From: Pseudomonas sp. NC02
Lineage (GTDB): Bacteria > Pseudomonadota > Gammaproteobacteria > Pseudomonadales > Pseudomonadaceae
NCBI RefSeq assembly: GCF_002874965.1
Contig: NZ_CP025624.1
Location: 5,456,001 to 5,520,000 of the forward strand
Direction of reading: 5' to 3'
Length of the DNA stretch: 64,000 nt
In this document: positions 952-10,201 of the stretch, one piece after another
Position numbering within the stretch: position 1 is the first letter of the stretch
Layout of the letters: every line of letters starts with the position of its first letter
Notes under the pieces: model-generated
What the model was told of the DNA's origin: nothing
Database searches by the model: none
What the model saw: the letters and a program-made list of their open reading frames with translations, nothing else
Position numbers and translations under genes: made by a program

Positions 952-2379
952 TTACAGACTCATTCGAGTCGCTAAGGCATCAACATACTCCTGCCATTCA
1001 TCAAGCACCTGGCGCTGAAACGGTGTGGCACTAACAGCCAACTCAAGACACGCCTGCTTAAAACCCTCAAGGGTGTTTGGCGCGCCCCATTGAGGGTCTG
1101 ACAAACGTTGCTGACAGAAAACTCTCCAGCGTTGTTGCTCTTCACTATTCAAGGTGTCTGGAAAGTTGCGTGCACGATAGCGAAATAATAATTCAGGCAA
1201 ACGTTCATCATCGAAAGGCCATTGCTGGCGCGCTAGTTGCGCCGGCTCGGCGACTCTCACTTGCTCACATAAACGTCGATCACGATCCCCGATAAAACCA
1301 TCGTATAGCTGCTGCTCGGGATCGGCGCTTGGCGCAAAATCTTCCTCGGCGTAAATCGCCGCCAGTTTATCGCGCCATAGTTCCTGTGCGTCGCTTAGCC
1401 GCAGGGCCCGCGCATCACACTCATCCATATCCAGCTGCAAACGCTCGCGGTCTTGCGGCCGAAGCACGCTCAACGGTGCGACCACCGGGCAACGATTGAT
1501 GTGCAGCAACTTGAGCGGTACCGGCAACTCACCTTCGGCCAGTTCGTCGCGGCGAGTATATAAGCGCCGGCGCAAGGTATCGGCGTCCTCGTCCAACAGC
1601 CCTTGCGGATCGAGACCCAGGTCGCAGACGATCAATGCATTGCGATTGCGCGGGTGCCACGCCAGCGGCAGCACCACCCCCAGGTAATGACGCTCGGCAG
1701 AAAAACGACCGGAAATATGCACCATCGGCTGCAACAACCGCACCTGGTCCATGACCCGTTGTTTGCTACGCAGTTGAAACAGCCAGTCATAGAGCTTGGG
1801 TTGCTTCTCGCGGATCAACCGGGCCAGGGCGATGGTGGCGCGCACATCGGACAAGGCGTCGTGGGCCTGGCCGTGGTCGATGCCGTTGGCGGCCGTCAAG
1901 CGCTCAAGCTTGAGGGTGACGCGCCCGTCCTGTTCCGGCCAGACGATCCCGTCAGGGCGCAGGGCGTAGGCAGTGCGCACCACGTCGATCAGGTCCCAGC
2001 GGCTGTTGCCGCCCTGCCATTCCCGGGCATAGGGATCGAAGAAATTGCGGTACAAGCTGTAGCGCGTCATCTCATCGTCAAAACGCAAGGTGTTGTAGCC
2101 GGCCCCGCAAGTGCCCGGGGTGGCCAGCTCGGCGTGCACCCGGGTCATGAAGTCGGCTTCGGCCAGGCCTTTTTCCGCCAGCACGCCGGGAGTGATGCCA
2201 GTGATCGCGCACGCTGCCGGATGCGGCAGGATATCGTCGCTGGGGTGGCAGTAGAGATTGACCGGCGGCCCGACCTCGTTAAGCTCGAGGTCGGTGCGAA
2301 TACCGGCTACCTGCAGCGGGCGGTCGGTACGCGGATTGATGCCGGTGGTTTCATAGTCGTACCAGAAAATGGTGGTCAC
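952..2379 (-). CDS. sbcB: Exodeoxyribonuclease I
   Basis: ExoI degrades single-stranded DNA in the 3'-to-5' direction and acts in mismatch repair and in trimming recombination intermediates. The protein has 475 residues, the same length as the E. coli enzyme. The DEDDh nuclease motifs are visible: YDYETTG near the N-terminus (D8, E10), RFDDEMTRY near residue 102, and HDALSDVRATIALA near residue 175. The remainder matches the SH3-like and helical ExoI C-terminal domains. The gene is convergent with mvaT, and the pair is conserved in order with purU upstream in Pseudomonas. Confidence 0.95.
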   Translation of the reverse strand: MTTIFWYDYETTGINPRTDRPLQVAGIRTDLELNEVGPPVNLYCHPSDDILPHPAACAITGITPGVLAEKGLAEADFMTRVHAELATPGTCGAGYNTLRFDDEMTRYSLYRNFFDPYAREWQGGNSRWDLIDVVRTAYALRPDGIVWPEQDGRVTLKLERLTAANGIDHGQAHDALSDVRATIALARLIREKQPKLYDWLFQLRSKQRVMDQVRLLQPMVHISGRFSAERHYLGVVLPLAWHPRNRNALIVCDLGLDPQGLLDEDADTLRRRLYTRRDELAEGELPVPLKLLHINRCPVVAPLSVLRPQDRERLQLDMDECDARALRLSDAQELWRDKLAAIYAEEDFAPSADPEQQLYDGFIGDRDRRLCEQVRVAEPAQLARQQWPFDDERLPELLFRYRARNFPDTLNSEEQQRWRVFCQQRLSDPQWGAPNTLEGFKQACLELAVSATPFQRQVLDEWQEYVDALATRMSL

Positions 2380-2568
2380 GGGCTATTCCTGTGCTGAAGA
2401 CCGGCAAAGTCTAGGCGCTTGCAGGCATCGGGGGCCAGCGCTGTCTTCCCTGTACAAACATTCAGTAAATCGTTGAGTGGTTGCTTCCACCGTCGACACT
2501 GCTAGCATCGGTCTTTCCAACCCCGCCGCTGCCGCCCAGGCGCCAGCGCCGCACTGCCAAGGACCGCG

Positions 2569-3261
2569 ATGCCACCTGCGCCACTGGATACCCGCTACCA
2601 GATCGAGACCCCGGAGGGTATCGACCTGCCCCTGCGCCCGGCCGGCCTGCTGGTACGCTCACTGGCCTTTGCCTTCGACCTGGGTTTGCGCGGCCTGATT
2701 CTCGGCATCCTGTTTATCGCATTGGCCTTTCTCGGCAACCTGGGCATTGGCCTGGGTTCGCTGCTGCTGTTCCTCGTCAGTTGGTGGTACATGGTGCTTT
2801 TCGAAGTGCTCAACCAGGGCTGCTCGCCCGGCAAGCAGGTCATGGGCCTGCGGGTGGTACAGGACGACGGCACGCCCATCGGCTGGTCCGCCTCGCTGAT
2901 CCGTAACCTGCTGCGTTTTGTCGACATGCTGCCCTTCGGCTATTTCCTCGGCGCCATCAGTTGCCTGCAACACCCCAACTTCAAGCGCCTGGGCGACCTG
3001 GCGGCCGGGACCCTGGTGATCTACCGCGAACAACCGCTTTCCCGCCCGCAAGTGCCCCAGGCCCCGGCGCTGCGCCTGCCGTTCGCCCTTGAGCTGAACG
3101 AACAACGGGCGATTCTCAGCTTCGCCGAACGCCAGGGCGAACTGTCGGCCGAACGGGTCAACGAACTGGCCGCTATCCTGGCCACGCCCCTGCAGGTCTC
3201 CCCTGCCCGCGCCGTGGCAGAACTCAACGGTGTGGCCCGCGGATTGTTGGGGCCAGCATGA
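2569..3261 (+). CDS. RDD family membrane protein, first gene of MoxR/DUF58 operon
   Basis: This 230-residue protein belongs to the RDD family, named for conserved Arg and Asp residues in its first transmembrane helices. Hydrophobic segments lie at about residues 25-45, 47-70 and 115-135. The sequence LRPAGLLVRSLAFAFDLGLR and the later GCSPGKQVMGLRVV and RLGDLAAGTLVIYR are typical. A soluble C-terminal tail of about 85 residues follows. The function of the family is unknown; transport or assembly roles have been suggested. The ATG is preceded by AAGGA. Its stop overlaps the next start (ATGA), so the two are probably translationally coupled. Confidence 0.8.
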   Translation: MPPAPLDTRYQIETPEGIDLPLRPAGLLVRSLAFAFDLGLRGLILGILFIALAFLGNLGIGLGSLLLFLVSWWYMVLFEVLNQGCSPGKQVMGLRVVQDDGTPIGWSASLIRNLLRFVDMLPFGYFLGAISCLQHPNFKRLGDLAAGTLVIYREQPLSRPQVPQAPALRLPFALELNEQRAILSFAERQGELSAERVNELAAILATPLQVSPARAVAELNGVARGLLGPA

Positions 3262-4238
3262 AACAGAGTCTTTTCGAAAGCCGTCATCAGCCACAATGGC
3301 AAGCCTTTGCCGAGCAGTTGACGCAGTTGGAGAAAGGCAAAGCCAAAGGCGCCGACTTCGTCGACTTCCCTCATCAATACCGGCAGTTGTGCCAGCACCT
3401 GGCCCTGGCCCAGGAGCGCGGCTACAGCAGCTACCTGGTGGACCCGTTGCAGCAGCTTGCCTTGCGCGGCCATCAACAGTTGTATCGTCATCGCAGCCGG
3501 ATGGGGGCAAACGTGCTGAGCTTCCTGCTGGCCGATTTCCCCAGGCTGGTTCGCGCGCAATGGCCATTTGTGCTGGCTGCCGGCCTGCTGTTCTTTGGCA
3601 GCCTGCTCGGCATTGCCTTGCTGGTGTACCTGTTTCCGGACTTGATCTACAGCATCGTCAGCCCTCGGCAGGTGGCCGAGATGCAGTCCATGTACAACCC
3701 CGATGCCAGCCGCCTGGGCCGGGCAGCCGAGCGCGCTTCCAGCGAAGACTGGATGATGTTCGGCTACTACGTGATGCACAACATCGGTATCGCCTTCCAG
3801 ACCTTTGCCGCCGGGTTGCTGTTCGGCCTGGGCAGCGTATTTTTCCTGTTCTTCAATGGCCTGATCATTGGCGCCGTTGCCGGGCACCTGACGCAAATCG
3901 GCTACGGGCAAACGTTCTGGTCATTTGTCATCGGCCATGGCGCCTTCGAGCTCAGCGCAATTGCCCTGGCTGGCGCGGCTGGCCTGCAACTGGGCTGGGC
4001 GCTGATTGCACCGGGGCCCCTCACCAGAGGCGAATCCCTGCGCCTGGCCGCGCGCAAAAGTGTGCAAATGATTTGTGGTGTGATGGTGTTCCTGCTGATC
4101 GCCGCGTTTATCGAGGCGTACTGGTCGTCCACCAATGCCGTGGCGCCGTGGGTCAAGTACCTGGTCGGCACCGCCCTGTGGTTGCTGATGGCGGCCTACC
4201 TGCTGTTTGCCGGACGGAATCGCCATGCGCCTGAGTGA
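3258..4238 (+). CDS. SpoIIM/DUF95-type integral membrane protein
   Basis: This 326-residue membrane protein resembles the stage II sporulation protein M (DUF95) family. The first 90 residues are cytoplasmic. About five hydrophobic helices follow, starting at WPFVLAAGLLFFGSLLGIAL (about 97-116), with FFNGLIIGAVAGHLTQIGYG and FVIGHGAFELSAIALAGAAG as the recognisable signature. Despite the name it has nothing to do with sporulation here. In many bacteria homologues sit beside MoxR ATPase and DUF58 genes, as in this operon. It overlaps the RDD gene by 4 bases and the following gene by 14, which implies coupled translation. Confidence 0.75.
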   Translation: MKQSLFESRHQPQWQAFAEQLTQLEKGKAKGADFVDFPHQYRQLCQHLALAQERGYSSYLVDPLQQLALRGHQQLYRHRSRMGANVLSFLLADFPRLVRAQWPFVLAAGLLFFGSLLGIALLVYLFPDLIYSIVSPRQVAEMQSMYNPDASRLGRAAERASSEDWMMFGYYVMHNIGIAFQTFAAGLLFGLGSVFFLFFNGLIIGAVAGHLTQIGYGQTFWSFVIGHGAFELSAIALAGAAGLQLGWALIAPGPLTRGESLRLAARKSVQMICGVMVFLLIAAFIEAYWSSTNAVAPWVKYLVGTALWLLMAAYLLFAGRNRHAPE

Positions 4239-5754
4239 TGCCAGCGTCGTGATCCGCCCGCGTACCTCCTGGGAGGCCATGGACCTCGGCATCCTGCTGG
4301 CCCGGGAACATCGACTGCTGTTGATGAGCAGTTGGGCCATCGTGACCTTGCCGGTCTTCGCCCTGTTCAGCGTGCTGCTGTGGAATCACCCCACCACGGC
4401 GCTGTTGCTGTTCTGGTGGTTGAAACCCGCCTTCGACCGCCTGCCACTGTATATCCTGTCCAAGGCCCTGTTCGGCGAAACACCCAGCCTGAAACAAGCG
4501 CTGCGCCAATCGCCGCGGCTGCTCAAGGGCCAACTGCTGGCCAGCCTGACCTGGCGGCGCTTCAGCCTCAGCCGTAGCTTCGAGATGCCGGTGGTCCAGC
4601 TCGAAGGGCTGCAAGGCCAGGCGCGCCAACAACGTCTCGGGGTGTTGCAGCAGCGCAACGCAGGCGCCGCGCGCTGGCTGACCCTGATCGGGGTGCACCT
4701 GGAAATCGCCCTGTGGTTCGGGTTGATGGCCGTGTTCTATTTCTTCCTGCCGCAAGAGGTCGAACGCGACTGGGATTGGCAGCAACTGGTGCTCACCGCC
4801 GGCCACGACTGGCGTTGGCTGGAGCACCTGACCAACATGTTCTACGCCTTGATCCTGGTGTTCTGGGAGCCGATCTATGTCGCCTGTGGCTTCAGCCTTT
4901 ACCTGAACCGCCGCACGGTGCTGGAAGCCTGGGACCTGGAACTGGTGTTCCGCCGAATGCGCCAGCGCCTGAGCGGTGTGGCGTCGCTGCTGTTGCTGGT
5001 GGCCGGGCTGACGCTGATTCCGCCGATCCCATCGGCATGGGCTGATGAACCGGTTCCCCAAACGCCGCTGACTACACAATCGGCCAGTCACTCGATCAAG
5101 ACGCTGTTGGAGCAGCCACCGTTCAAGAACCCGGAAACGCTCACTCGCTACCGCTTCGGCGAGGATAAAGCAGCCGACAAAAACAAAGCGGCAGGTGATG
5201 CCAAGCTGCCAGCCTGGCTGGAATCATTGCTGAAAAACCTCAACAGTGATTCGTTCAAGCACATCGCCAAGGGCCTTGAAGTACTGCTCTGGGGATTGCT
5301 GGCAGGTGGCCTGGCACTGGTGATCTGGCGCTACCGCGACTGGCTGCATGCCTTTGTCAGCCGCCGCAGCCCGCGCAAACCCAAGGCTGCCAAACCCGTG
5401 CCTTCGCAGCTGTTCGGCCTTGAACTGGGGGCTGACACCTTGCCCGAAGACATCGCAGACGCCGCCGAACAGCTGTGGGCAACACAGCCCCGGGAAGCCC
5501 TCGGCCTGCTCTACCGTGGGTTGCTCAGCCGCTTGCTGCACGACTTCAACCTGCCGCTGAAAAGTGCCGACACGGAAGGTGAAGTCCTGGAACGTATCCG
5601 CCAACTGCAACAACCGCAGCTGCTGGCATTCAGCGGTGAGCTGACCCGTTACTGGCAAAACCTTGCCTATGGCCATCGCCTGCCGCCTGCCTTGGCGCAA
5701 CAACAGCTATGCAGCGATTGGCGAACCCTGTTCGGTTCGGGAGCGGCGCAATGA
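4225..5754 (+). CDS. Multi-pass membrane protein with C-terminal DUF4129 domain
   Basis: The first half of this 509-residue protein has several hydrophobic helices (about residues 28-70, 150-180, 205-235 and 255-275). A polar, Ala/Lys-rich stretch of about 100 residues follows, then another helix (LLWGLLAGGLALVIWRYRDW). The C-terminal region carries the DUF4129 signature around LWATQPREALGLLYRGLLSR. ATG 4225 was preferred to an in-frame ATG at 4207, because it lies closer to the upstream stop and gives the natural start MRLSDASVVIRPRTSWEAMD. DUF4129 proteins travel with MoxR, DUF4350 and DUF58 in distant phyla, but their biochemical role is not established. Confidence 0.7.
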   Translation: MRLSDASVVIRPRTSWEAMDLGILLAREHRLLLMSSWAIVTLPVFALFSVLLWNHPTTALLLFWWLKPAFDRLPLYILSKALFGETPSLKQALRQSPRLLKGQLLASLTWRRFSLSRSFEMPVVQLEGLQGQARQQRLGVLQQRNAGAARWLTLIGVHLEIALWFGLMAVFYFFLPQEVERDWDWQQLVLTAGHDWRWLEHLTNMFYALILVFWEPIYVACGFSLYLNRRTVLEAWDLELVFRRMRQRLSGVASLLLLVAGLTLIPPIPSAWADEPVPQTPLTTQSASHSIKTLLEQPPFKNPETLTRYRFGEDKAADKNKAAGDAKLPAWLESLLKNLNSDSFKHIAKGLEVLLWGLLAGGLALVIWRYRDWLHAFVSRRSPRKPKAAKPVPSQLFGLELGADTLPEDIADAAEQLWATQPREALGLLYRGLLSRLLHDFNLPLKSADTEGEVLERIRQLQQPQLLAFSGELTRYWQNLAYGHRLPPALAQQQLCSDWRTLFGSGAAQ

Positions 5755-6904
5755 ACCGGCCGTTGCTGTGGGTCGGGCTGCTGGTCGCGGGCTTGCTGGC
5801 AGCCGGCGGTTTTTATGCCTGGCACAAGGCGATTCCTTATCAGGAAGTGGTCGATCGCGGCCCTTCACCCGAAGCCCTGGCCAACCCCTACCTGGCAGCT
5901 GAACACTTTCTGCGCCAGCAGGGCCTGGTGGTGGAACATGCCAACAGCCTCGAACGGCTGGCCAGCCTTTCGCCCAAGGGCAACAGCCTGCTGTTGCTGG
6001 GCGAGCGCAGCAACATGAGCCCGCCCCAGGTTGATCAATTGCTGCAGTGGACCCGGGCTGGCGGCCATCTGCTGCTGGTAGCCGAAGCGCTGTGGGATGA
6101 GGACACCGGTGAAAGTGGCGACCTGTTGCTGGATCGTGTGCAGATACACCAATCCTTCAGTGAAGAATTCGACGCTCCGGCACCCGCGCGTAAAAAGAAA
6201 ACGCCGGACCTGACCAAACTCTATGTGGACAACGAAACAGCGCCGGCCTATTTCAGCTTCGACACCGACTTCAACCTCACCGACCCCAGGCACCTGGCAC
6301 AATTCTCGGCCAACAGCGCCCGGTCGACGCACCTGATGCAGGTCAACCTCGGGCAAGGGCGTGTGACCGTGGTCACCGACAGCGACCTGTGGAAAAACCC
6401 GGGCATCGGCCTGCACGATAACGCGTGGCTGCTCTGGTACCTGAGCCAGGGCACCCAGGTCACACTGCTATTCAACACTGATGTCGAGGACCTGTTCAGC
6501 CTGTTGTTGCGCTACTTCCCCCAGGCACTGGTGGCACTTGCCGCACTGATCGCCCTGGGCCTCTGGCACGCCAGCCTGCGCCAGGGTCCGATCCGGCAAC
6601 CGGCGCCCAAGGCACGGCGGCAATTGCAGGAACACTTGAACGCCAGTGCCGACTTCCTGTTGCGCCGCAGCGGGCAAGACAGCTTGCTGCAAGCTTTGCA
6701 GCGCGACATCCAGCGCACCGCTCGGCGCCGTCATCCCGGGTTCGAACACCTCGATACAGCCGAACAATTGCGGGTGCTTGAACGCCTGACCCGCCAACCC
6801 TCCCTTGTTATCAGCCAGGCCCTTGGCCCACCTGCGACGAAACGGCTCTCCAGCGCCGATTTCAGCCGCCAGGTGGCCTGCCTGCAAACCCTCAGGAATG
6901 CCCT

Positions 6905-6908
<4 letters not shown>
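5751..6908 (+). CDS. DUF4350 domain membrane-anchored protein
   Basis: This protein of 385 residues starts with one transmembrane helix (about 5-23) and has a second near residues 255-275 (YFPQALVALAALIALGLW). Between them lies a periplasmic DUF4350 domain, recognisable from NPYLAAEHFLRQQGLVVE and the Rossmann-like strands NSLLLLGE, GGHLLLVAE and GRVTVVTDSD. The fold resembles a glutamine-amidotransferase-like or ABC-exporter accessory domain, but I see no catalytic triad. The cytoplasmic tail is Arg/Gln-rich. It overlaps both neighbours by 4 bases (ATGA at each end). The first in-frame ATG at 5709 lies inside the upstream gene and was rejected. Confidence 0.7.
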
Positions 6909-7885
<977 letters not shown>

Positions 7886-7892
7886 GACGCCC

Positions 7893-9224
7893 ATGAGACC
7901 AACCCGCCTGCTGTTGACCTGGCTCGGTGTACTGCTGGGCCTGAGTATCCTGCTCGGCGCACTGGTGGCGCTACAGGTCAAGGTGCCAGACGCCCTGCAC
8001 TCAGTGACGTGGGGCCTGCTGCTGGCCCTGTTGCTGCTGGCCCTGCTGGATGCCAGCCGCCTGCGCCGCCGGCCGTCCCCGCGCGTGCGACGGCAGATGC
8101 CCGGCAGCCTGGCACTGGGGCGCTGGGGGGAAGTGCGGGTAAGCCTGGAGCACGATTATCCCCAGCCGTTGGCGGTCCAGGTATTCGATCATGTGCCTGA
8201 CGGCCTGGCGGTGGAGGACCTGCCGCAGTCCATCGAACTGCGGCCCGGCGAGCACAGTGAACTGGGTTATCGGCTAAGGCCCCAAAGGCGCGGGCATTTC
8301 AGCTTTACCCGCTGTGAAGTGCATCTGCCCAGCGCCCTGGGGCTATGGTCGGCCCGGCGCCTGATCGACGTCAGCGACGCCACCCGGGTCTACCCGGACT
8401 TCGCACGCCTGTATGGCGCGCAGTTGCTGGCGGTGGACAACTGGCTCAACCAGCTGGGCGTACGCCAGCGGCAACGGCGTGGGCTGGGCCTGGAGTTTCA
8501 CCAGCTGCGTGAGTTTCGCGAAGGTGACAGCCTGCGCCAGATCGACTGGAAAGCCACCGCCCGGCAACGCACGCCCATTGCCAGGGAGTACCAGGACGAG
8601 CGCGACCAGCAGATCATGTTCATGCTCGATTGTGGCCGGCGCATGCGCAGCCAGGACGCCGAATTGTCGCACTTCGACCACGCCCTCAACGCTTGCCTGC
8701 TGCTCAGCTATGTCGCCCTGCGCCAAGGTGATGCCGTGGGGCTCTGCACGTTTGCCTGCGACCAGCCGCGCTACCTGGCCCCTGTCAAGGGCAGCGGCCA
8801 GCTCAACCTGCTGCTGAATGCGGTATATGACCTGGACACTTCCCGGCGTACCGCCGATTACCAGGCAGCCGCCAACCAACTGCTGGCTCGACAGAAACGC
8901 CGTTCGTTAGTGATCGTAGTGACCAATTTGCGCGATGAGGATGATGAAGAATTGCTGAGCGCCGTTAAACGCCTCAGTCGCCAGCATCGGGTACTGGTTG
9001 CCAGCCTGCGGGAGGAGGTCCTTGACCAGTTGCGCCAGGCCCCCGTGCAAACCCTGCCCGAAGCCCTGGCCTATTGCGGGAATGTCGACTATCTCAACAC
9101 CCGGGACGAACTCCACGACCGCTTGAACGCCCACGGGCTGTCGGTACTGGACACACTGCCTTCGGACCTGGGTGCCGCCCTGGTGACCCGCTACCTGGGC
9201 TGGAAAAAAGCCGGCGCGCTATGA
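7893..9224 (+). CDS. DUF58 (von Willebrand A-like) membrane-anchored protein
   Basis: The 443-residue protein begins with two transmembrane helices (about residues 7-27 and 36-53). A beta-rich region follows (80-160), then the DUF58 core with its signature EGDSLRQIDWKATARQ (about 210-225). DUF58 is a vWA-like fold that partners MoxR ATPases. In vWA domains the metal site reads DxSxS; here the equivalent position reads DCGRR (246-250), so the site looks degenerate. ATG 7893 was chosen over in-frame ATG 7800, which lies inside moxR. It is the last gene of the operon, and a PilZ gene converges on it. Confidence 0.85.
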   Translation: MRPTRLLLTWLGVLLGLSILLGALVALQVKVPDALHSVTWGLLLALLLLALLDASRLRRRPSPRVRRQMPGSLALGRWGEVRVSLEHDYPQPLAVQVFDHVPDGLAVEDLPQSIELRPGEHSELGYRLRPQRRGHFSFTRCEVHLPSALGLWSARRLIDVSDATRVYPDFARLYGAQLLAVDNWLNQLGVRQRQRRGLGLEFHQLREFREGDSLRQIDWKATARQRTPIAREYQDERDQQIMFMLDCGRRMRSQDAELSHFDHALNACLLLSYVALRQGDAVGLCTFACDQPRYLAPVKGSGQLNLLLNAVYDLDTSRRTADYQAAANQLLARQKRRSLVIVVTNLRDEDDEELLSAVKRLSRQHRVLVASLREEVLDQLRQAPVQTLPEALAYCGNVDYLNTRDELHDRLNAHGLSVLDTLPSDLGAALVTRYLGWKKAGAL

Positions 9225-9240
9225 ACGCCGGATGCAGCAC

Positions 9241-9600
9241 CTAGGCAGAGGCCTGCAACGGATCAAAGCTGAAGTAATCCAGCAGCGCGCTGATCACCTC
9301 CCCATATTCGGCAGGGGCCTGGGATATGCTGAACCCGGAATCGTAATGCTGGGGGTTTATATCCTCATGACACCACAGGCAGGTGGCCGTGAGGTCTACC
9401 GCCTGCACCTCACCCTCAGGCCCGGGGATCTTCAAGCGCAGCTCGAACTCCACATCGACCATCATGGGTAACTGGCTGATCAACATCAGGCCCTGCTCGG
9501 AAACATTGCCCAGATAGCCGATTGGCTTGTCCGTCAGGCGGTTGAACACTTGAAGGAAGCAAGGTAACTGATGCCGCTCGATCCGTCGGTGAGTAAACAT
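9241..9600 (-). CDS. PilZ-domain protein, predicted c-di-GMP receptor
   Basis: This is a single PilZ domain of 119 residues starting MFTHRRIERHQLP. Both c-di-GMP-binding motifs are intact: RxxxR at residues 5-9 (RRIER) and NxSxxG at NVSEQG. It should therefore bind cyclic di-GMP. The reading frame stays open upstream to an ATG at 9777, which would add 59 residues without PilZ character. ATG 9600 was preferred because PilZ proteins of this kind usually begin just before the RxxxR motif. Neither start has a strong ribosome binding site, so the longer form cannot be excluded. The target is unknown. Confidence 0.75.
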   Translation of the reverse strand: MFTHRRIERHQLPCFLQVFNRLTDKPIGYLGNVSEQGLMLISQLPMMVDVEFELRLKIPGPEGEVQAVDLTATCLWCHEDINPQHYDSGFSISQAPAEYGEVISALLDYFSFDPLQASA

Positions 9601-9826
9601 GATGAGGTCGCCATCCAATAGCCATATATGTGGCCGCTCCAGTGATTCGAAACGAGCCTGAAGGCCCGCTCTCCCCGGATATCGGTGCGACAACCGCAAA
9701 CGGGTTGCCACTTTTACAGCTGCCAAATCCGGGAACGCCATCCGTTTGAATAGAAACTTATACAAACTGACATTCAAAGATTAGCCCAAGACTGGCAACG
9801 AGCCAGCTATGGCATGACAAATATCA

Positions 9827-10201
9827 TCACAACGACGCCGGCCGCGGCTGAGCAACGCTCGCGCCGGGGTAATGCCCCAGTTGCTGCAGGGTATCCAAAC
9901 GGGCACGGGCACGGAATGCGTACTCGCTCGCCGGGTACTGGCTGATGATGAACTGATAGGTTTGCGCCGCATCGACAAACAGCTTCTCGCGCTCCAGGCA
10001 CTGCCCGCGCAACATCGAGACTTCCGGTTGCACGTAGCGCCGGGAACGGCTTTCACGGTCGACCTGGGACAACTCAAGGGTGACCCGCTGGCAATCGCCC
10101 ACACCGTAGGCGCGGTACGCATTGTTCAAATGATGGTCCATCGACCAACGGGTGCAGCCGACAACACTGACGGCCAGGGCAGCAATGATCACGATTCGCA
10201 T
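9827..10201 (-). CDS. Small TPR-like lipoprotein
   Basis: This is a 124-residue predicted lipoprotein. The signal MRIVIIAALAVSVVGC ends in a lipobox (VVGC), giving Cys16 as the lipidated residue. The mature part is helical and resembles a tetratricopeptide pair (LNNAYRAYGVGDCQRVTLEL and TYQFIISQYPASEYAFRARA). The start at 10201 has a good ribosome binding site (AGGAGA). The frame runs further upstream to 10240, but that would bury the signal peptide. It is divergent from pykA. No specific function is recognised; an envelope scaffolding role would be a guess. Confidence 0.75.
   Translation of the reverse strand: MRIVIIAALAVSVVGCTRWSMDHHLNNAYRAYGVGDCQRVTLELSQVDRESRSRRYVQPEVSMLRGQCLEREKLFVDAAQTYQFIISQYPASEYAFRARARLDTLQQLGHYPGASVAQPRPASL

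Follow-up and report, generated by a model that had tools for sequence, protein, structure and literature searches.

The window analysed here, a 64,000-nucleotide stretch of the genome of Pseudomonas sp. NC02, contains six open reading frames (ORFs) arranged head to tail on the + strand at 2569-9224, which code for proteins of the RDD, SpoIIM, DUF4129, DUF4350, MoxR and DUF58 families. The genes are listed with their Pfam scores, their putative counterparts in antagonism resistance cluster 2 (Arc2; arc2A-G, PA4317-23) of Pseudomonas aeruginosa, and the peptides from published primers that matched them best (see below):

2569..3261, + strand: RDD-family membrane protein (PF06271, 70.6 bits); PA4318/arc2B by order, adjoining SpoIIM in the compared loci
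3258..4238, + strand: SpoIIM/DUF95 membrane protein with five hydrophobic segments by hydropathy (PF01944, 134 bits); PA4319/arc2C by order; FGFYIMN
4225..5754, + strand: DUF4129 protein with an N-terminal membrane part (PF13559, 32.6 bits, residues 435-506 of the TTG-started frame); PA4320/arc2D; LTDASV and GWRSLF
5751..6908, + strand: DUF4350 protein (DUF4350 Pfam family, 90.6 bits); PA4321/arc2E by order
6905..7885, + strand: MoxR AAA+ ATPase (PF07726, AAA_3, 215.7 bits; Walker A GVPGLGKT and DEINR; PDB 2r44, E 3.5e-75); PA4322/arc2F by order
7893..9224, + strand: DUF58 vWA-like protein with two N-terminal hydrophobic segments and DCGRRM in place of DxSxS (PF01882, 101.9 bits); PA4323/arc2G; PA4323 primers from start, middle and end

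All six families exceeded the curated Pfam cut-offs. The successive junctions measured -4, -14, -4 and -4 bases (overlaps), followed by a gap of 7 bases between the MoxR and DUF58 genes. An initial annotation of this DNA, made from the letters alone, had described a six-family head-to-tail operon at this position with four junctions overlapping by 4-14 bases and one 7-base gap, and had noted an ATPase and a vWA-like protein beside membrane proteins; ORFs and Pfam matches bore out each of these points. Production of the six proteins in a fixed ratio, which that annotation read from the tight junctions, may follow. The starts used were ATG at 4225 for the DUF4129 gene (TTG at 4207 in the ORF list), ATG at 5751 for the DUF4350 gene (ATG at 5709 in the list) and ATG at 7893 for the DUF58 gene (TTG at 7800 in the list).

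For comparison, a relative's DUF4350 protein was used to scan genome contigs, which yielded 77 named loci, mostly from Pseudomonas. Since P. aeruginosa was not among them, orthology was assessed through primer-encoded residues: of the 14 published primers for PA4320 and PA4323 (PMC8926400, appendix 3), seven were translated after removal of vector tails. MKPSRALL, EFHQLR and WKRAGVL-stop, the translations of the PA4323 primers, all matched the window DUF58 protein best, and TQNPIE, from the primer upstream of PA4323, had its best match in the window MoxR protein. LTDASV and GWRSLF, encoded by the PA4320 primers, were found best in the DUF4129 protein, and FGFYIMN, from the primer upstream of PA4320, in the SpoIIM protein. 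Because all seven peptides (short pieces, the smallest margin being 23 versus 20) agreed with the expected protein and fell in the right order, the window operon is almost certainly, as judged by sequence, the Arc2 of this Pseudomonas-type genome, with six genes and no arc2A. Both clusters would then share the DUF4129 (PA4320) and DUF58 (PA4323) genes with MoxR and SpoIIM genes adjoining, and a MoxR AAA+ ATPase with a VWF-type protein in one conserved cluster. The P. aeruginosa cluster differs in having seven genes; the window carries no arc2A between sbcB and the RDD gene and no strong RsmA-type site at its first gene.

The earlier remark that no assigned function was known for the whole set is not supported, since Arc2 has a published defence phenotype (PMC8926400). 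According to that paper, transposon screens run during attack by the type VI secretion system (T6SS) of Burkholderia thailandensis picked out PA4317-23 genes; six Arc2 genes were hit, four of which passed the cut-off for ColA, a colicin-like pore-former. Removing ColA from the attacker significantly restored the survival of the Arc2 mutant, complementation of the deletion was partial, and a second deletion inside the operon made matters no worse, pointing to one pathway (PMC8926400). The contribution of Arc2 is described there as predominantly defensive, with attacker survival unaffected by Arc2 inactivation, and its expression as very low in the basal state, with induction through Gac/Rsm. 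The same source reports that P. aeruginosa without Arc1-3 function behaved like the wild type under heat, H2O2, high salt and detergent. These assays do not back an envelope-stress reading, and they partly answer, in the negative, the initial suggestion to look for deletion phenotypes under envelope stress. No further paper on the mechanism of Arc2 appeared among the matches listed in a literature search that mostly did not cover subscription journals. Separately, PA4321, at the DUF4350 position, was mutated in two isolates from starved biofilms, in one of which an insertion was the sole mutation (PMC8459498).

The gene set was highly conserved. All six genes were present in the same order and strand in 73 of the 77 named loci, including those of P. 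nitroreducens, P. jinjuensis, P. mendocina, P. chlororaphis and others, which speaks against a chance arrangement. The exceptions were L183, which ends at a contig end, and three loci (L133, L185 and L192) with an insertion before the MoxR gene. Junctions were counted in the 73 loci by taking the start nearest the first residue of the window protein, a procedure that favours the window starts. The RDD/SpoIIM junction was exactly -4 in 73/73 loci, SpoIIM/DUF4129 was -14 in 67/73, DUF4129/DUF4350 was -4 in 68/73, and DUF4350/MoxR was -4 in 41 of the 62 loci in which a start was found. The MoxR/DUF58 junction was -4 in 50/73 loci, so the 7-base gap of the window is the less usual state.

Beyond these loci, SpoIIM exceeded its cut-off in 19 of 150 Pseudomonadota genomes, the window's own included. 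Within about 4 kb of SpoIIM, all 19 had a match to DUF4350 (E up to 0.001, in some cases under the family cut-off), and RDD, SpoIIM, MoxR and DUF58 occurred together in all 19 fetched stretches (18 loci plus the window). In this sample, over-cut-off SpoIIM was thus confined to the operon context. Thirteen of the 19 had the six-gene order of the window and six another one: L043-L046, L048 and L049 carry MoxR-DUF58-SpoIIM-RDD with DUF4350 upstream of MoxR, which indicates that the RDD/SpoIIM module has switched sides. DUF4350 alone was not specific, with a match in 55/150 genomes, and DUF58 (112/150) and DUF4129 (37/150) are also found elsewhere. In five distant metagenome-assembled loci among the 77 (L196-L200; 23-26% identity, L199 being binned as Verrucomicrobiales), RDD and DUF4129 were detected by tblastn below the Pfam cut-offs. 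The view that the gene set is old and conserved, for which the Rv3691-Rv3695 region of M. tuberculosis had been named, also agrees with a published listing: PMC8191103 tables Rv3691 to Rv3695, with the counterparts of DUF4350, MoxR, DUF58, SpoIIM and RDD under consecutive numbers, with similar values, among the genes down-regulated in an M. chelonae lysogen. The likeness is one of family content as listed; the order by locus number resembles the second Pseudomonadota order, with SpoIIM and RDD after DUF58, and SpoIIM is marked on the other strand (PMC8191103).

Presence of the operon was followed through its RDD gene and its flanks, which in the window are:

439-861: mvaT, preceding sbcB
952-2379, - strand: sbcB, 5' flank of the operon
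9241-9777, - strand: PilZ-domain gene, 3' flank of the operon

The RDD gene was present in 81 of 99 genomes of the same genus (83 with a match, G156 and G243 being only weak) and in 65 of 99 of the same family (66 with a match, one weak). sbcB could be located in 17 of the 18 same-genus genomes without the RDD gene, and 16 of the 17 had the PilZ gene next to it, so that the site is mostly empty and the operon absent as a block; L243 had no PilZ gene near sbcB. In 15 of the 16 sites, 48-191 bases separated the sbcB and PilZ matches. L230 represents a case of operon loss, because a 41-codon DUF58 remnant (3075-3197, 61% identity) remains between the two genes. Many independent losses were rejected as an explanation: on an sbcB tree of 127 rows, the 17 operon-less rows required two changes, and the starred branches forced only one. 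The operon-less state may therefore have a single origin, as far as this tree indicates. In two genomes the RDD gene was matched in two pieces (G200:C1:4586656-4587343 and G228:C1:3636349-3637022), suggesting a broken frame or a sequencing error.

The insertions in L133 (from 10312), L185 (from 10207) and L192 (10213-19072) differ from one another, measure about 12.4, 9.4 and 8.8 kb, and lie exactly between the DUF4350 and MoxR genes; the distal MoxR gene is kept in all three at 87-89% identity, on the same contig by coordinates. The L192 insertion, read by eye, holds an RND efflux set and a two-component system.

Upstream of the RDD gene, two elements were distinguished in the window:

2481..2508, + strand: putative promoter-like element TTGCTT-16-TAGCAT before the first gene, proposed from the conservation of TAGCAT
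2551..2563, + strand: conserved leader block GCACTGCCAAGGA, whose ANGGA overlaps the ribosome-binding site, a weak candidate RsmA/RsmE site

TAGCAT was found within 140 bases before the RDD start in 56/58 genus and family loci, that of the window included; a consensus promoter scan of 2300-9400 gave no promoter-like site, and an Rfam scan of 2300-9900 no match. A block like GCACTGCCANGGA was present in 34/34 fluorescens-type loci (L066-L099), before or just after the start codon, and in a script search 32 of these 34 had ANGGA between the promoter and the first codon, versus 2 of 22 loci of other genera. The CsrA/RsmA consensus is RUACARGGAUGU. The window leader matched it at 6/12 positions, no better than control genes, and in RNA folding of six example leaders the GGA was not consistently exposed. 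A direct RsmA site in the window is not claimed, in spite of the conserved ANGGA, and direct RsmA control of its operon is unproven.

A different situation was met in P. nitroreducens, P. mendocina and other loci, in which a gene for a membrane protein of 250-290 residues lies between sbcB and the RDD gene. Its DUF975 and GPDPase_memb matches are both below cut-off, and by position it would be arc2A/PA4317. Such a gene was detected in 44 of 97 sequences searched (the 77 named loci, L032-L050 and the window). It was missing from the window and the other fluorescens-type loci, and also from L131, L132, L159 and L196-L200 (P. jinjuensis and P. schmalbachii included); as all of these keep the other six genes, arc2A was treated as accessory. 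A search of the window's genome for arc2A elsewhere gave nothing beyond a 27% partial match. At the arc2A start, a site near the CsrA/RsmA consensus scored at least 9/12 in 26 of 38 leaders, and up to 11, whereas no control leader (mvaT, 72; sbcB, 72; PilZ, 13; a gene for a 137-residue protein, 24; pykA, 24) reached 9, the best scoring 8. ANGGA occurred in the 70 bases before the arc2A start in 41/44 leaders, against 19% in shuffles, and among RDD leaders of loci without arc2A none of 40 reached 8. Direct RsmA control in arc2A-bearing lineages is thus well supported by these leader sequences. What is new here is that the window has neither the seventh gene nor the strong RsmA-type site of arc2A; its operon is, by its sequence, an ortholog of an already published defence operon with a regulatory twist. 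Two testable predictions follow: arc2A should have a direct RsmA site, and a six-gene form should occur naturally without that gene.

Several features of the encoded proteins bear on how the system might work. The AAA+ motifs GxPGxxKT and DEINR were intact in 20/20 MoxR rows, window included. The DUF58 protein carries DxGxxM (DCGRRM in the window) in 20/20 rows and in 70/73 named loci, the other three differing under a simple pattern. Among 19 control DUF58 stretches from other places, DxSxS was found in two and DxGxxM in one (L209); a twentieth, L220, was dropped after it proved to be an operon copy. Loss of the metal ion-dependent adhesion site (MIDAS) as a feature unique to the operon was rejected, the control proteins varying too; only the near-constant operon signature stands. 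The DUF4350 protein has hydrophobic segments at 5-23 and 251-269 and a helical C-terminus, and the domain between the segments was modelled as a cysteine-free GATase1/GIFT-like fold, which we infer to be periplasmic; a cysteine-free GATase1-like DUF4350 ectodomain, as predicted by this model, is new here. Sequence searches for solved relatives of DUF4350, DUF4129, DUF58 and SpoIIM gave none that was convincing, and a fold search with the DUF4129 model returned nothing with E < 0.001, the best match being a HEPN-type structure (E 1.2). Two proposed kinships were discarded, that of the DUF4129 N-terminus as an arc2A paralogue (hhalign probability 0.7%) and that of DUF4129 with DUF4350 (0.2%). 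A known anti-phage system was likewise not recognised, PADLOC giving only weak AAA+ protein matches (best E 3.5e-4).

By analogy with P. aeruginosa, the operon probably defends this species against pore-forming protein toxins that rivals put into the inner membrane. Gene content, order, conservation and orthology are results of the present analysis, and the defence phenotype and Gac/Rsm induction come from the P. aeruginosa paper (PMC8926400). The best overall explanation, and a fairly likely one, is a six-gene Arc2 with a role in anti-pore defence. As to mechanism, we tentatively propose an ATP-driven inner-membrane machine that might remove or neutralise inserted pores. The RDD, SpoIIM and DUF4129 proteins would form an assembly in the inner membrane, and the DUF4350 protein would contribute a periplasmic domain without catalytic activity, either to hold this assembly or to sense the intruder. 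The DUF58 protein, anchored in the membrane, would dock the MoxR ring, and ATP hydrolysis by MoxR, transmitted through DUF58, would remodel the assembly, so that the inserted toxin might be extracted, sealed or prevented from opening. Complex formation, topology and toxin removal are inferred steps of this scheme. In favour of the explanation count the primer matches, the P. aeruginosa phenotype, the conserved neighbourhood, the block-wise absence in relatives and the intact ATPase motifs, together with two precedents, RavA-ViaA, a MoxR/vWA pair active at the inner membrane and on lipids (PMC9489729), and NorQ-NorD, which remodels a membrane enzyme (PMC9976466).

Several observations weigh against this explanation. 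The defence experiments were all done in P. aeruginosa, the operon of the window species being known here from its genes, and since the window has no arc2A and no strong RsmA-type site (6/12), its regulation, and perhaps its function, could differ. The window DUF58 protein lacks the MIDAS serines of DxSxS, and NorD needed an intact MIDAS for its function on its target (PMC9976466). The structure models are of modest confidence (pTM 0.48-0.49). Weaker SpoIIM matches, below cut-off, were found in six more genomes, all outside an operon neighbourhood, and the 8.8-12.4 kb insertions in three genomes indicate that strict co-transcription is not universal.

Other readings of the operon were weighed against anti-pore defence. 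Arc2 might spare the toxin and reseal or re-energise the inner membrane after depolarisation, with RDD moving ions and the MoxR/DUF58 pair altering lipids or respiratory complexes like RavA-ViaA. RDD proteins are known as ion antiporters, which counts for such a role, as does the action of RavA-ViaA, which are directed at specific phospholipids, alter the morphology of membranes and affect sensitivity to aminoglycosides (PMC9489729). Survival in high salt, detergent, heat and peroxide was normal without Arc2 function (PMC8926400), which gives no sign of a general role in ion handling or membrane repair, and we regard this reading as rather unlikely. RavA-ViaA and NorQ-NorD resemble the window pair in combining a MoxR AAA+ motor with a vWA-type partner at the inner membrane (PMC9489729, PMC9976466). 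They differ in that the window partner belongs to the DUF58 family, has two hydrophobic segments at its N-terminus and reads DCGRRM in the place of DxSxS, and the window operon encodes four further membrane proteins. NorQ-NorD serves a membrane enzyme as remodelling chaperone (PMC9976466), and related MoxR/VWF pairs are reported to release inhibition or aid metal cofactor insertion (PMC8926400). These precedents favour the reading of the initial annotation, in which ATPase-driven maturation or remodelling of an envelope complex is possible. Its specific form, in which Arc2 assembles or loads one envelope membrane enzyme and toxin sensitivity is a by-product, is unlikely: the scanned window flanks (MvaT, SbcB, PilZ and a 137-residue protein; other loci were not searched for one) hold no obvious substrate enzyme, and Arc2 expression is very low until Gac/Rsm induction, with normal stress assays (PMC8926400).

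Archaeal loci of arCOG01314 likewise combine a DUF4350 domain with GldG/flavodoxin-like similarity, a MoxR-type ATPase and a vWA protein, and Makarova et al. (2015; PMC5898192) placed these in one predicted secretion or membrane-remodelling system. The window has SpoIIM and RDD where those loci have Ig-like or S-layer proteins, none of which was found among the six operon genes or the four scanned flanking proteins, and inactivation of Arc2 left attacker survival unchanged (PMC8926400); a secretion or S-layer-type export system is accordingly very unlikely. The SpoIIM domain (134 bits) would also fit a peptidoglycan-remodelling complex such as SpoIIM-SpoIID-SpoIIP of sporulation. This proposal is already largely refuted and most improbable, as SpoIIP and SpoIID had no match in the 6.9-Mb genome and both were matched in the B. 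subtilis control.

The assignment to Arc2 ties the "unknown" families DUF4129, DUF4350, DUF58, SpoIIM and RDD to a published defence phenotype and, if the proposed mechanism is true, pore removal would be a new bacterial way to survive membrane attack. A bolder extension, which we offer as quite speculative, is that Arc2 founds a class of ATP-driven machines, spread across phyla, that work in the inner membrane to extract or dismantle pore-formers inserted there, a bacterial counterpart of eukaryotic pore-removal repair with Rv3691-95 as another member, and that in the fluorescens lineage the loss of arc2A released the operon from strong RsmA control.

The host genome comprises 6.89 Mb in a single contig, and the closest species-named relatives of its proteins are from Pseudomonas yamanorum. 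In P. protegens 14B2 (L195, 9109-10211) the DUF4350 match to the window protein stops early, possibly through a frameshift. Stretches were also fetched for 34 of the other 54 genomes with a DUF4350 match. In 15 of these 34, all from other Pseudomonadota (L051-L065), DUF4350 occurred without any of the other five genes, and L050 carried only DUF4129, DUF4350, MoxR (in two frames) and DUF58.

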